This document shows positions 6,950-38,017 of a DNA stretch of 38,017 bases, one piece after another. The notes beneath the pieces are model-generated. The model was not told where the DNA came from. It worked only from the letters and a program-made list of their open reading frames with translations, and made no database searches. The position numbers and the translations under genes were made by a program. Source of the stretch: Deltaproteobacteria bacterium (GTDB taxonomy: Bacteria; Desulfobacterota; Binatia; UBA9968); assembly GCA_009692615.1 (NCBI GenBank), contig SHYW01000044.1, positions 1-38,017 of the forward strand. The letters are read 5' to 3'. The first letter of the stretch is position 1; each line of letters begins with the position of its first letter.

Positions 6950-7033
6950 TTCACCACGAACAACACGAAGAACACGAAGTCCGGAAGAATAATTTTTCGA
7001 AACCTTCGTGCCCTTCGTGAACTTCGTGGTGAA
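6950..7033. repeat. TTCACCAC-type dispersed hairpin repeat, copy 1
   Basis: An imperfect palindrome runs from TTCACCACGAA at 6950 to its complement ending at 7033. Each arm has about 30 bases made of iterated CACGAAG words. Related copies lie at 30824-30899 and 32705-32794, with a half copy at 22543-22574. It sits between the binding-protein gene and the first permease gene, where it could act as mRNA stabiliser or attenuator. Confidence 0.8.
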
Positions 7034-13356: not shown

Positions 13357-14364
13357 ATGAGGAAGACTTTTCAGAGAAACTCTGACGGATCAGTCGGATC
13401 CGACCGATCCGTCAGATCGATCCTAGCAGTGCTAGCCTTTCTTTGCAGCTACACCTCACTCGACGCCGCCACCCTCGAGAAAGTCCGCATCGGCTATTCC
13501 GTCGGCGGCCTGATCCCCTTTCCACTGATCGTCGCCAAGGAAAATCGTTTCTTCGAGCAAGCCGGTTTGGATGTCGAGCTGATCAACATTCCGCCGACCA
13601 TCGCGGTGACCGCACTGGTCTCAGGCGATATCCAGTATGTGATCTTCGCCGGCACCACGCTCAACGCTGCGGTGCGCGGCCTACCAGTCAAACTCGTAAT
13701 GGTCTACAATGACAGGCCGCTATTTTCGTTAATGTCCAAGGCGGAAATCCGTTCAATCAAAGAGCTTAAAGGCAAAGTGCTCGGCGTCGCCACGCTGACT
13801 TCAGGCGAGTCGTTCATGTCGCGCCGTTTGTTGAAGGATGCCGGCATCGACGCCGACAAAGAAATGATCTTGCGCGTCATCGGTAACACGCCGGACCGCT
13901 TGCAAGCGCTCCGTGCCGGCAGCGTCGACGCCACCACACTGACCACGCCCGTCGACATCATCGCCGAACGGATGGGCCTGCGCCGCCTCGCCTTCATGGG
14001 CGACACTCTGGAAAGCATCAACGGCGGCTTCGGGGTTTCCGATCGTTGGCTGCAACAGCGGCCCGACCAAGTTAGGAAAATGATCGCCGTCGCCTTCCGC
14101 GGCATGAGCCACGCCCGCGCTCAACGCCAGGACTCCATCGCGCTGATCATGTCGAAGTGGAAGCTAGAGCGAGACGTCGCCGAGAAAGCTTTCGACTCGA
14201 CGATAAATACCTGGGCCGAAAACGGCATCGCGTCGGACCAAGCGTTGCAAGCGGGCATCGAAGAAAGTTTGAAAGTGTCAAACAGCAAACAAACCGTGCC
14301 GCTATCGCGCGTCGCCGACTTCACCCTCGCGAGGGAAGTCTACCGCGAGATCAAGGCGAAGTAA
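13357..14364 (+). CDS. NMT1-like ABC substrate-binding protein in the catabolic unit
   Basis: The 335-residue product has NMT1/SsuA landmarks: IGYSVGGLIPFPLIVAKENR (about 47-66), FFEQAGLDVELINI, and LKGKVLGVATLTSGESF. Its leader is odd. Between the start MRKTFQR and the hydrophobic ILAVLAFLCSYT there is a stretch NSDGSVGSDRSVR encoded by a near-perfect 30-bp palindrome (13384-13413). The ATG at 13357 lies one base after the redoxin stop. A GTG at 13429 is in frame but would leave no basic n-region. It has no dedicated permease nearby and may present a ligand to a transporter elsewhere. Confidence 0.82.
   Translation: MRKTFQRNSDGSVGSDRSVRSILAVLAFLCSYTSLDAATLEKVRIGYSVGGLIPFPLIVAKENRFFEQAGLDVELINIPPTIAVTALVSGDIQYVIFAGTTLNAAVRGLPVKLVMVYNDRPLFSLMSKAEIRSIKELKGKVLGVATLTSGESFMSRRLLKDAGIDADKEMILRVIGNTPDRLQALRAGSVDATTLTTPVDIIAERMGLRRLAFMGDTLESINGGFGVSDRWLQQRPDQVRKMIAVAFRGMSHARAQRQDSIALIMSKWKLERDVAEKAFDSTINTWAENGIASDQALQAGIEESLKVSNSKQTVPLSRVADFTLAREVYREIKAK
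13384..13413. repeat. 30-bp palindrome inside a coding N-terminus
   Basis: Outer arms GACGGATC and GATCCGTC enclose GTCGGATCCGAC, itself a perfect 12-bp palindrome, with one mismatched pair between them. It is built of GGATC words and lies within the signal-peptide region of the binding-protein gene. It looks like an extragenic palindrome that became coding. Confidence 0.7.
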
Positions 14365-30823: not shown

Positions 30824-30899
30824 TTCACCACGGAGAACACAGAGAGCACGGAGGTTAGAAACGAATTTTCTCCGTGTCCTCCGTGCTCTCCGTGGTGAA
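30824..30899. repeat. TTCACCAC-type dispersed hairpin repeat, copy 2
   Basis: An imperfect palindrome runs from TTCACCACGGAGA to TCTCCGTGGTGAA, with iterated CACGGAG words in both arms. It lies in the gap upstream of the NMT1-type gene. It is a CGGAG version of the CGAAG repeat at 6950-7033. Confidence 0.8.
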
Positions 30900-35094: not shown

Positions 35095-35630
35095 TGCAAT
35101 CAAAGTCTGCTACGCGAATTCACACTGCAACCGCGATTATCCATTGGGGTGAGATCACAACGCCACTGGGGCCGCTGTTCGCCGCCGTCAGCGCCGCCGG
35201 GGTTTGCGCGATAGAATTCGGCCGACGCCAACCGGTATTTTCCACGCTCAAAAAGAACGGCGCGAACTTTGAGAAAAATTCCGCCGCGCTGGCTTCAGTG
35301 ATGGCGCAGCTGCGCGAATACTTCGCCGGCAAACGAAGTCGTTTCGATCTGCCGATCGATCTTTCATCGCTCACACCGTTCCAGCGCCAGGTCTTGGCGG
35401 TCACGCAAAAAATTCCCGCGGGACAAACTTGGAGCTACCAACAAGTCGCAAAAAATATGGCGCGGCCGAAATCGAGCCGGCCCGTGGGCCAAGCGTTGGG
35501 GCACAATCCGATCCCGATCATCATTCCCTGCCACCGCGTCGTCGCTAGCGACGGCACTCTCGGCGGCTACAGCGGCGGATCGGGACTGAAAGCCAAGCGC
35601 TGGTTGTTGCAACACGAAGGCGCGCTTTAG
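35094..35630 (+). CDS. ogt: Methylated-DNA-protein cysteine methyltransferase
   Basis: The 178-residue protein repairs O6-alkylguanine by moving the alkyl group to its own Cys. The active-site motif IPCHRVV is present with Cys146, after the DNA-binding HTH segment FQRQVLAVTQKIPAG and the SRPVGQALGHNP stretch with the Arg-finger context. The N-terminal domain has TPLGPLFAAVSAAGVCAIEF. Length fits Ogt/MGMT. It starts with GTG overlapping the VOC stop (TAGTG). Confidence 0.93.
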   Translation: MQSKSATRIHTATAIIHWGEITTPLGPLFAAVSAAGVCAIEFGRRQPVFSTLKKNGANFEKNSAALASVMAQLREYFAGKRSRFDLPIDLSSLTPFQRQVLAVTQKIPAGQTWSYQQVAKNMARPKSSRPVGQALGHNPIPIIIPCHRVVASDGTLGGYSGGSGLKAKRWLLQHEGAL

Positions 35631-36547
35631 TGAGTCGAATCGTCAGCGTCCCGGCGAAAGCCAATGCGACACCGACGATGATTTGGACCGCCCTCGGCGC
35701 GGTCTATATCATTTGGGGTTCGACCTATCTCGCCATCCGCTTCGCCGTCGCGACTATGCCGCCGTTTTTATCGGCGGCGGCGCGCTTCGTCATTTCTGGC
35801 GCATTTCTCTATTTTTGGCGCCGCGCCGCCGGCGATCCGCAACCGACGCGGATCGAATTTCGCAACGCGGTGATCATTGGAGTTTTCTTATTGGTCGGCG
35901 GCAACGGCGGCGTGGTCTGGGCCGCGCAATACATTCCATCGAGCTTGTCCGCGTTACTCGTCGCCACCGTGCCGTTGTGGATGCTGCTGTTCGATTTTCT
36001 CCGTCCCGGCGGCGAACGGCCGAGCCCGAAAGCCTTCATCGGGCTGCTGATCGGTTTCTGCGGCGCGGCATTGTTGATCGGTTGGAGCACCAGCGGCGCG
36101 ACGGCCAATAGTTTGCACGGCGCCCTCGCCGTCGTCGTCGCCTCGTTTCTCTGGGCCATCGGTTCGATCTACGGCAAAACATCCAAGCTCCCGGCATCGC
36201 CGCTGGTCACCACCGGAATCGAAATGCTCGCCGGCGGCATCGTGCAAATTTTCGTCGCCGCCCTGTTCGGCGAATTCGCCGATTTTAATTTCACCGCGAT
36301 CACGTCAAAGTCGATGCTCGCACTGCTTTATCTAACACTCATCGGCCCCATCGCCTTCGTCGCCTACGCCTGGCTCCTGCGCAACGCACCGATTCCGCTG
36401 GTCGCGACCTATTCCTACGTTAACCCGCTGGTGGCGATAATTCTCGGCTACTTTCTTGGCAAGGAAATTCTTACAACGCGAATCCTGCTGGCAGCTGGAT
36501 TGATCATTGGTTCCGTGGTGCTGGTCAGCGCGCGCAAGGAACGCTAG
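35630..36547 (+). CDS. EamA/DMT superfamily transporter
   Basis: The 305-residue protein has about ten membrane helices in two EamA repeats. The first has AVYIIWGSTYLAIRFAV and the second ALAVVVASFLWAIGSIYG. These are drug/metabolite transporters, often exporters of amino acids or small toxins; the substrate is unknown. It starts with GTG overlapping the previous stop (TAGTG) and ends the coupled gene run that begins at 32834. The next 60 bp contain an inverted repeat. Confidence 0.92.
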   Translation: MSRIVSVPAKANATPTMIWTALGAVYIIWGSTYLAIRFAVATMPPFLSAAARFVISGAFLYFWRRAAGDPQPTRIEFRNAVIIGVFLLVGGNGGVVWAAQYIPSSLSALLVATVPLWMLLFDFLRPGGERPSPKAFIGLLIGFCGAALLIGWSTSGATANSLHGALAVVVASFLWAIGSIYGKTSKLPASPLVTTGIEMLAGGIVQIFVAALFGEFADFNFTAITSKSMLALLYLTLIGPIAFVAYAWLLRNAPIPLVATYSYVNPLVAIILGYFLGKEILTTRILLAAGLIIGSVVLVSARKER

Positions 36548-36607
36548 CGAATTTCAAATTCCAGATTACAGATTCCAAATTTTCTGATAAGGGATTCTTG
36601 TAGTTCA

Positions 36608-37051
36608 ATGAAATACCAGCGATTCGAAGATTTGCCGGTTTGGAAAGACAGCGCGGAACTCTCGCGATTGATGTTTGAATTGACGAGTCATGAGCTATTT
36701 CGTACGCACTATGGGCTGCGTGATCAGCTGGAACGCGCCGCCCTTTCGATCTCAAACAATATCGCAGAAGGATTCGAACGTGGAACCAACAACGAGTTAC
36801 TCGCCTTCCTGTACATTGCCCGTGGGTCAGCTCGCGAAGTTCGGTCGATGCTTCGGATACTAGAGTCTTGGGAGAAATTTGCCGAAAAGAAATCGCAAAT
36901 CACGGAACTGAGGAATAAAACCGAATCGATATCCCGACAGCTTCATGGCTGGATAGCGCAGCTAAAACGATCGGGTTATAGCGCCCAAAGACATCTCAAC
37001 GTCGTCAAGCCGCCCAAACAATCGCAGCAAAAATCAACCAAAGAATCGTAA
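36608..37051 (+). CDS. Four helix bundle protein (23S rRNA intervening-sequence/Avd-like family)
   Basis: The 147-residue product matches the four-helix-bundle/S23 family. It starts FEDLPVWKDSAELSRLMFEL, with the central LRDQLERAALSISNNIAEGF and FLYIARGSAREVRSML motifs that define the group, and ends in a Lys/Gln-rich tail (PPKQSQQKSTKES). Relatives are encoded in 23S rRNA insertions and, as Avd, in diversity-generating retroelements. Function outside those settings is unknown; nucleic-acid binding through the basic surface is likely. No reverse transcriptase or variable repeat is nearby, so a DGR is not supported. Confidence 0.9.
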   Translation: MKYQRFEDLPVWKDSAELSRLMFELTSHELFRTHYGLRDQLERAALSISNNIAEGFERGTNNELLAFLYIARGSAREVRSMLRILESWEKFAEKKSQITELRNKTESISRQLHGWIAQLKRSGYSAQRHLNVVKPPKQSQQKSTKES

Positions 37052-37072
37052 TCCGAAGCATTATTAATCTGG

Positions 37073-37097
37073 AATTTGGAATCTGTAATCTGGAATT
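37073..37097. repeat. Right arm of the 25-bp inverted repeat
   Basis: It is the exact inverse of 36557-36581. It ends 10 bases before the next gene's ATG, so the GGAGG ribosome site of the GST-like gene lies right at its edge. Confidence 0.85.
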
Positions 37098-37107
37098 GGA
37101 GGCCCTC

Positions 37108-37716
37108 ATGCCGATAAAACTTTATCACGATGTCCCGTCAACCAACTCCGACCGCGTAAAAATCGCTCTCGCCGAAAAAGGCCTCGCCTGGGAGGGAGTT
37201 TGGATCAAACTCGCCAAGCGCGAGCAGAAAAGTCCCGAACATCTCGCGCGCAATCCCCACGGCAAGATTCCCGTGATTGAAGATGACGGCAAGATTCTCT
37301 TCGAGTCCTGCATCATCAACGAGTATCTCGATGAGAAATATCCCAACCCGCCGCTCCAGCCGAAAGACCCCTATCTGCGCGCCCGCGGGAGAATTCTCGT
37401 CGACTACTTTTTGAACTATCTGCACGATCCCTACTGGGCACTGCGCGGCGAGATGATCAAGAAGAATGAAGCGGAGCGCGATCAGAAAACAATCGCCGAG
37501 ACGCGCACAGAAGTCACCGACCGGTTGCAATATTTGGAAGTAGCGTTGGGCGCCCAGCCGTTTTTCCTGGGCGACTACAGTCTCACCGACATCGCCATGG
37601 TGCCGCGCTTCCCGCGCCTTGAACAGTACGGCGTGCTGCCAAGCGCCGCGCTGCCAAAACTGACAGCTTGGTTCGAGCGCATGAAACAACGGCCGGCGGT
37701 GCAAGCGGTGCTGTGA
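37108..37716 (+). CDS. Glutathione S-transferase family protein
   Basis: The 202-residue product has a thioredoxin-like N-terminal domain with YHDVPSTNSDRVKIALAEKG (residues 6-25) and HGKIPVIEDDGKILFES, which holds the cis-Pro and the Glu-Ser that bind the gamma-glutamyl group. A helical C-terminal domain follows, with FLGDYSLTDIAMVPRF, the N-capping segment of GSTs. Substrates may be electrophiles or aromatic intermediates. The ATG at 37108 has GGAGG five bases upstream; an in-frame TTG at 37096 is less likely. Confidence 0.9.
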   Translation: MPIKLYHDVPSTNSDRVKIALAEKGLAWEGVWIKLAKREQKSPEHLARNPHGKIPVIEDDGKILFESCIINEYLDEKYPNPPLQPKDPYLRARGRILVDYFLNYLHDPYWALRGEMIKKNEAERDQKTIAETRTEVTDRLQYLEVALGAQPFFLGDYSLTDIAMVPRFPRLEQYGVLPSAALPKLTAWFERMKQRPAVQAVL

Positions 37717-37871
37717 TGGTTTATACACTTGTGTTGGATCGCGTCGCAGCCGCGTCAACAACCTCGCCGATAGAATATGATCGAAAAAAGATTGAGAGCC
37801 GGCTGGAATAACCTGCCAATCGTTAGGGAGATAAGCCGCCACCCCGGTCGGCTTTTGCCGGAACACTTATC
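37717..37871. other. Gap between the GST-like gene and the right IS end
   Basis: No gene is supported. A weak hairpin, AGCCG (37834-37838) with CGGCT (37849-37853) followed by four T, could be a terminator. I see nothing else. Confidence 0.4.
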
Positions 37872-38017
37872 GTGTCGTGGCAACGTCAATATGTCATGTT
37901 AACAGCAACGCGATTATGTCAGGGTAGTGCGTTGGGTTGAGGTCGTAAGTTAGAAACCTGGCCATAGCGGAACCCCACCTTGTTGGAGTTGGTTCGATAT
38001 AGGCCAAGTGTGTGCGT
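37872..38017 (-). mobile_element. 3' end of an insertion sequence of the same type as the left edge
   Basis: Units at 37880-37896 and 37905-37924 match the left-edge units in inverse orientation (GCAACGnnATTATGTCA core, GTTAAC between). The adjoining sequence has no counterpart to the transposase start seen at the left, so this is the opposite (3') end of the element. I could not choose the transposase C-terminal frame with confidence. Confidence 0.65.
37880..37924. repeat. Tandem IS-end repeat units (right)
   Basis: Two units with cores AATATGTCA and ATTATGTCAGGG are spaced about 25 bp apart, inverse to those at 92-138. About 16 of 21 positions match between the outermost units of the two ends. 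Confidence 0.72.

Follow-up and report, generated by a model that had tools for sequence, protein, structure and literature searches.

Paired heptad arms at PF05635 genes: a cassette between EamA and glutathione S-transferase genes and its relatives

Introduction

Why does a gene of the type carried by 23S rRNA intervening sequences (IVSs) stand between two protein genes, enclosed in an exact inverted repeat? Such a gene lies in the window, by which we mean the whole analysed stretch of 38,017 nucleotides (GenBank assembly GCA_009692615.1, contig SHYW01000044.1, forward strand). The consulted parts of PMC4990558 describe both PF05635 proteins and rRNA intervening sequences as being of unknown function and unclear origin. 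A sequence-only reading of the locus had proposed a stand-alone movable unit and had taken the perfect repeat as a sign of recent movement or of selection for an RNA stem. We asked what the arms are, where else they occur, and how closely they are tied to the gene.

Results

The gene (36608..37051, + strand) encodes a 147-aa four-helix-bundle protein of the PF05635/TIGR02436 type (IVP, S23-type), assigned by HMM and by structure relatives. In profile HMM searches the protein scored 94.3 bits against PF05635 (23S_rRNA_IVP; cut-off 33.8) and 94.9 bits against TIGR02436 (cut-off 24); its Pfam and HMM matches were to PF05635-type families only, with no Y1 (HUH) transposase. The gene is bounded by a left heptad arm in the (CCARATT)n orientation (36550..36581, +) and a right heptad arm in the (AATYTGG)n orientation (37066..37100, +). 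The 25-bp inverted repeat reported earlier was found again as exact inverted copies at 36557-36581 and 37073-37097; its ends are complementary, making a stem possible, and it extends to 28 nt at 96% (36554-36581 and 37073-37100). The paired-arm score was 25, compared with a best of 11 in 20 shuffles of the flanks of the gene, and the period-7 runs at 36550-36581 and 37066-37096 were the only two runs of at least 11 in the window. The arms are thus imperfect tandem heptamers, AATYTGG on one side and CCARATT on the other, a structure that the sequence-only reading had missed. Outside the element lie an EamA-type transporter gene upstream (35630..36547, +; ORF and Pfam) and a glutathione S-transferase (GST) gene downstream (37108..37716, +; ATG at 37108), whose Shine-Dalgarno-like GGAGG, recognized by eye at 37098..37102 (+), abuts the right arm. 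With these neighbours, and with no Rfam family at gathering score over 36000-38017, the claim of an IVS-type gene inside an inverted repeat and outside rRNA was borne out. Elsewhere in the window, an inverted pair of close period-9 arrays (ACACGAAGA-like; 6952-6979 and 7003-7028) probably represents another unit in its gene-free hairpin form, and two more short period-9 arrays were seen at 13386-13418 and 30870-30894.

The window protein, modelled as a monomer, was predicted to be a four-helix bundle with a mean pLDDT of 91.2. Its best Foldseek match was 2gsc_B (XCC0516; E 4.1e-5, target TM 0.84), followed by 2rld_E (BT_0352; E 4.2e-3, target TM 0.88) and by Avd of diversity-generating retroelements (DGRs) in 4dwl (E 0.017, target TM 0.82). 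For Avd and its ribonucleoprotein complexes together, E values were 0.017 and weaker and target TM was mostly 0.77-0.82, one chain having 0.62. Both 2gsc and 2rld were also PDB relatives of the window protein. Among 49 aligned proteins, L9, Q40, A45, S47, N51-I52-A53-E54-G55, S74 and E77 (window protein numbering) were invariant. X. campestris S23p forms a homopentamer in a toroidal ring, according to the consulted text of PMC4990558.

The genome of the window (G000; 5.05 Mb, 186 contigs) was searched for further copies of the arm, a check that had been proposed with the sequence-only reading. The 25-mer occurred at 46 places at up to three mismatches, the two of the window included, and the reversed-pattern control gave 0; the arm is a dispersed repeat, which had likewise gone unnoticed. 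The AATYTGG pattern GGAATYTGKAATYTGGAATYTG gave 103 matches, overlapping registers of one array being counted repeatedly. Thirty of the 46 places were read, and the 28 gene-free ones constituted 23 sites, 11 with convergent pairs and 12 with single arms. All 11 pairs shared the polarity of the cassette, and nine had loops of 5-16 nt in hairpins of 82-96 bp. Flanking ORFs at the 23 sites were codirectional in 13 cases, convergent in 5 and divergent in 4, with one site inside an ORF (counts without a baseline). Many arrays occupied short gaps between mechanically called ORFs and ended about 20 nt or less from the next one. G000 has two more PF05635 genes. One (C58) has different arms, and its arm was found at five places besides its own two; the other (C4) has inverted arms of yet another kind, with a score of 18. 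In many groups of bacteria, relatives of the gene are often enclosed by paired blocks of other units, which suggests a single system of gene and repeats.

We further investigated whether paired arms are a general feature of PF05635 genes. Within the taxonomic family, a profile search of 25 genomes gave PF05635 matches in 22. From 69 genes taken, five with short flanks were left out (among them the misplaced row G003:C653), and 64 were counted, including two misplaced rows (G016:C193 and G019:C131). Paired inverted arms scoring at least 13 were present at 37 of the 64 and arms scoring at least 11 at 46, compared with 5 and 17 of 302 neighbouring control ORFs, which were scored with slightly different flank windows. 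The broad sample was chosen by protein similarity: from at least 582 relatives of four proteins of the family, the best 80 were taken, and two that had no flank were then left out. This sample gave 48 and 58 of 78 genes at the same thresholds, compared with 4 and 11 of 120 control ORFs (Fisher p 1.4e-20 at 13 or more), the control ORFs being mechanical and part of their flanks coding. When GST genes served as a real-gene control, with the three cassette-flanking loci excluded, paired arms were found at 0 of 17. Of 83 listed plasmid rows, with repeating records, 18 PF05635 loci were fetched; all 18 had periodic flanks and 15 had paired arms. One of them, a true IVS, lies within an LSU (23S) rRNA gene on plasmid AZO_p2 of Azospirillum lipoferum and has heptad arms. 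We are confident of the association itself: across a broad bacterial sample, and in the rRNA IVS too, PF05635 genes are characteristically flanked by paired arms. Counting against the model, about two fifths of the genes showed no strong inverted pair by our score (27/64 in the family, 30/78 in the broad sample).

The periodicity of the flanks was examined with G016:C193, G019:C131, G003:C653 and G005:C7 omitted, as they also were from the arm-length, stem-mismatch and co-inheritance analyses. Periodic runs of at least 9 were found at 54 of 61 family genes and 68 of 78 broad genes, compared with 7 of 139 shuffled flanks. The best lag was 7 in 39 of the 54 and 52 of the 68, with periods of 8 or 9 at some loci, and the length of period-7 arms peaked at four heptads (28 of 78 upstream and 35 of 72 downstream arms). 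However, lag-7 runs were also present at 5 of the 17 GST control genes, and 108 of 439 control ORFs had a periodic run of at least 9, indicating that these genomes commonly contain period-7 arrays as such. The mark of PF05635 genes is therefore the paired arms and not the period-7 arrays alone.

Some plasmid loci had further neighbours of note. On cyanobacterial plasmids of Anabaena sp. 90 and Pseudanabaena galeata, a heptad-armed PF05635 gene lies between cas6 and cas4 (L117, 795-1163; L323, 601-960), and on four cyanobacterial plasmids (L113, L115, L116 and L119) the PF05635 gene adjoins an annotated integrase or recombinase gene.

Arm sequence was then compared with protein sequence for 65 genes of the family and 76 of the broad sample, from whose 80 loci four with short frames had been dropped. 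Among pairs from different genomes with unrelated neighbours, arm similarity of at least 14 was reached in 43% of 53 pairs at 60% or higher protein identity, and in under 1% of pairs below 40%. Within the family, at 55% identity or more and in different genomes, arms were shared at this level in 20 of 57 pairs with unrelated neighbours and in 25 of 40 with homologous neighbours; below 45% identity the counts were 3 of 1829 pairs from different genomes and 1 of 102 from the same genome. For pairs that involved the broad sample, the relationship was weaker than in the family (10 of 40 at 58% identity or more, one with shared neighbours). These ten included two pairs with Chloroflexi loci (G008:C156 and L189, score 16; G021:C131 and L143, score 18), and the pair of Verrucomicrobia L167 and Clostridia L195 (score 15) was the only one demonstrably spanning phyla. 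The prediction of TAACTGA arms for cyanobacterial relatives (about 50% identity) of the TAACTGA-type protein G014:C633 failed, the fetched ones being of GAGCAGG or GGGAGA type. To judge from these comparisons, loci differ in their arm unit, but the unit tends to be passed on together with the protein, across loci and genera. That the arm might be an ordinary intergenic repeat with no relation to the gene had been named beforehand as a finding that would speak against a cassette; the arm is indeed dispersed, but its sequence tends to follow the protein subfamily. This concordance would fit an arm-carrying element, or a protein and unit kept together by recognition.

Repeat abundance was compared with the presence of a cognate gene in 24 genomes, the set used for the pattern, Y1_Tnp and RVT_1 searches, which excludes G008 (a fifth genus-g1 genome, PF05635-positive). 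The AATYTGG pattern gave 103, 64, 33 and 25 matches in the four genus-g1 genomes and at most 2 in the other 20. Three of these four (G000, G009 and G010) carry a PF05635 gene with an AATYTGG arm at the EamA-GST locus, and the fourth (G011) has a PF05635 relative at 58% identity with an AAATCTGAG-type arm; the concordance of unit and gene within the genus could reflect plain descent. The GAGTCCT pattern, carried by the PF05635 genes of G013 and G014, had 120 and 68 matches in these two genomes and at most 3 in the other 22; its reversed-pattern control was nearly as high and thus uninformative, so that the contrast between genomes alone counts. The GTTCAANNC unit, found in 23 of the 24 genomes, contradicted a strict dependence of repeats on a cognate gene. 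It had 160, 65 and 57 matches in G020, G018 and G001, genomes with no PF05635 match in assemblies that are 71-87% complete, and it also abounds in genomes in which no GTTCAA-type PF05635 gene was found. Copy number therefore needs no cognate gene in the same genome. Gene-free GTTCAANNC hairpins were of mixed polarity (two of each kind at the loci read, and both kinds again among the pattern matches), and GTTCAANNC cassettes were, by eye, of one polarity. Upstream of GST in G004 and G007, gene-free arrays of other units (AGGCGTG-like and AAATCTGAG-like; L126 and L127) were seen, as if this gap were a frequently used one.

The age of the insertion was assessed at the locus itself. The cassette is common to the congeners G000, G009 and G010 at one EamA-GST locus, which speaks against recent movement as the meaning of the perfect repeat. 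EamA and GST lie adjacent with no PF05635 gene between them in G024 and G005, two genomes of other genera, which provide candidate empty sites of the kind sought by the sequence-only reading. Given its presence in three members of genus g1 and its absence from G024 and G005, the cassette was either acquired by an ancestor inside that genus or lost elsewhere. No AATYTGG hairpin was seen by eye in the EamA-GST intervals of G024 and G005; these gene-less intervals are too diverged to reveal a target-site duplication, and none was seen. At both of the two alignable orthologous gene-free sites of G000 and G010, the hairpin was present in the two species and the loops had diverged. Movement here is, on this comparative evidence, old or rare, with no recent event caught at the two compared sites. 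Of the proposed movable unit, what held was that gene and arms recur together at different loci.

Action at the RNA level, also part of the earlier proposal, was examined through the stems. A selected sense RNA stem would favour G-U over A-C mismatches, but G-U and A-C numbered 56 and 54, 78 and 71, and 109 and 101 in three settings. With no G-U excess, selection for an RNA stem is unsupported, and since single arms are also common (12 of the 23 gene-free sites), the array itself looks like the unit. Neither excision of the RNA nor a selected stem gained support. RVT_1 matched in 10 of the 24 genomes, but not in G000 and not in any of the three congeners searched; a reverse transcriptase acting in trans was rejected for these four genus-g1 genomes. 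Y1_Tnp (RAYT-like) genes were found in all 24 genomes. The 20 that were fetched had lag-7 runs of at least 9 in no case, runs at lag 11 or 12 in 4, and paired inverted ends of at least 13 in 5, so that paired ends are not exclusive to PF05635. Their ends being of another kind, RAYTs were rejected as drivers of the heptad arrays. Several of these genes (L300-L319) have GGGGTCAGG-like ends and form a REP-like system of their own in these genomes.

Discussion

The explanation that we prefer, with a probability of about 0.55, pairs PF05635 proteins with heptad arrays as partners, in an organisation that resembles REP/RAYT and uses an unrelated protein; binding and mobility are the inferred parts of it. 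On this view, the cassette would belong to a dispersed family of repeats, as its gene-bearing member. The basic repeat would be a short array of a degenerate 7-bp unit, typically of about four copies, occurring singly or as two arrays converging on a tiny loop, and in the gene-bearing form a PF05635 gene would replace the hairpin loop. The protein may recognise its cognate array, perhaps with one heptad per subunit, in the manner of the TRAP ring, whose 11 subunits bind 11 (G/U)AG repeats (consulted part of PMC4027176). An arm of four to five heptads would fit a pentamer. Recognition may in turn promote the copying, retention or use of the array. That the protein recognises its heptads we hold to be somewhat favoured; that it drives their spread is a tentative proposal, a little below even odds.

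The same observations could be accounted for by regulation. A TRAP-like ring would bind heptad arrays in transcripts or DNA and tune the adjacent genes, and the arrays would be selected operators. The crowding of arrays into short gaps close to the next ORF is consistent with this, as is the retention of hairpins with diverged loops at both orthologous sites compared; in the consulted part of PMC4679880, TAACTGA lies just upstream of start codons in a Beggiatoaceae genome, and a post-transcriptional role is proposed with S1, Csp and Csr as candidate binders. However, ORF orientations at the 23 gene-free sites were mixed, the heptad unit varies from locus to locus, arrays are abundant where there is no cognate gene, and Xanthomonas arrays are about equal on either strand of neighbouring genes (as given in the consulted part of PMC4692102). 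We consider regulation an unlikely explanation. We regard as less probable still that the hairpins spread by other means and that PF05635 genes, as small homing elements, lodge in hairpin loops, whether in rRNA or between genes. Copies of GTTCAANNC in genomes with no detected PF05635 gene, the heptad-armed gene inside Azospirillum rRNA, and the polarity that gene-free AATYTGG hairpins share with the cassette speak for such a hitchhiker. Arms nevertheless tracked the protein more than the genome, dissimilar proteins of one genome sharing arms in a single pair of 102, and the EamA-GST intervals of G024 and G005 held no AATYTGG hairpin visible by eye.

The cassette of the sequence-only reading, in which the arms form a processed RNA stem and the RNA is excised, possibly with an Avd-like reverse transcriptase in trans, appears very improbable. 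The Foldseek match to DGR Avd (4dwl) and the heptad arms of the Azospirillum IVS are in its favour, and so are the heptamers of the Coxiella IVS at the 5' end, where an RNase III site falls at the first repeat (consulted part of PMC4990558). The balanced G-U and A-C mismatches, the lack of RVT_1 matches in G000 and three congeners, and the frequency of single arms argue against it.

Returning to PF05635 proteins as partners of heptad arrays, a wider joint reading can be put forward with some reserve, as slightly less probable than its negation. PF05635 proteins, both IVS-borne and free-standing, would be sequence-specific partners of heptad arrays in many phyla; a pentameric ring would read about four to five heptads, with one unit per protein lineage; and together they would make a gene-repeat class independent of RAYT and of reverse transcriptase. 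The gene-free heptamers of Xanthomonas, Nostoc and Beggiatoaceae would then be offspring, and rRNA IVSs would be copies that landed in rRNA. If true, this would be a second gene-repeat system besides REP/RAYT. PF05635 IVSs and dispersed heptamers were already known separately, and their association appears to be new; no link between the two was found in the open-access literature (PMC). The association gives a family with solved structures (2gsc, 2rld) a candidate ligand, often evident in the adjacent DNA, and makes both the function of PF05635 and the origin of dispersed heptamers testable with short oligonucleotides.

Among known systems, the 23S rRNA IVSs with an S23p/PF05635 ORF share with the cassette the protein family, the inverted arms, and heptamers near the ends, as in Azospirillum and, in the consulted part of PMC4990558, Coxiella. 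For the Coxiella IVS, the same text describes two to three copies of the heptamer GACAGAT ahead of the ORF; this ORF is decaying and its protein is seemingly not made, which counts against a gene-repeat model. Unlike these IVSs, the window cassette sits between protein genes, and its arm unit is dispersed genome-wide.

Dispersed heptamer repeats known earlier include the STRR of cyanobacteria. The published arrays of Xanthomonas, Nostoc and Beggiatoaceae are, in the parts of the reports consulted, dispersed, mostly intergenic and of period 7, as the arms are. They include GGGGA(C/T)T in Nostoc and (GGGAATC)n in Xanthomonas, two genomes of which contain 186 and 183 dispersed arrays; four is the commonest number of units, convergent pairs number 70 and 75, and the arrays generally show no association with mobile elements (PMC4692102, in part). 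TAACTGA arrays occur in Beggiatoaceae, Cyanobacteria and some Bacteroidetes, with no evident mechanism of transfer (PMC4679880, in part). The published heptamers differ in the explanations offered, which are G-quadruplexes and binding by S1, Csp or Csr, with PF05635 unnamed in the consulted parts of PMC4679880 and PMC4692102; those of PMC4679880 mention none of S23, IVS, intervening or four-helix.

Avd of DGRs resembles the window protein in fold (4dwl, target TM 0.82), and its homology with PF05635-type proteins is noted in the consulted part of PMC10053308. The DGR differs in that the window genome has no RVT_1 match. In REP/RAYT, dispersed intergenic inverted repeats flank one small gene that may drive them. 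The likeness of the heptad system to REP/REPIN and RAYT, so far as the consulted parts of their descriptions go, lies in this arrangement of dispersed intergenic inverted repeats around one small gene as a possible driver. Unlike RAYT, the window protein is a four-helix bundle and not a Y1 HUH nuclease, and its arms are tandem heptads.
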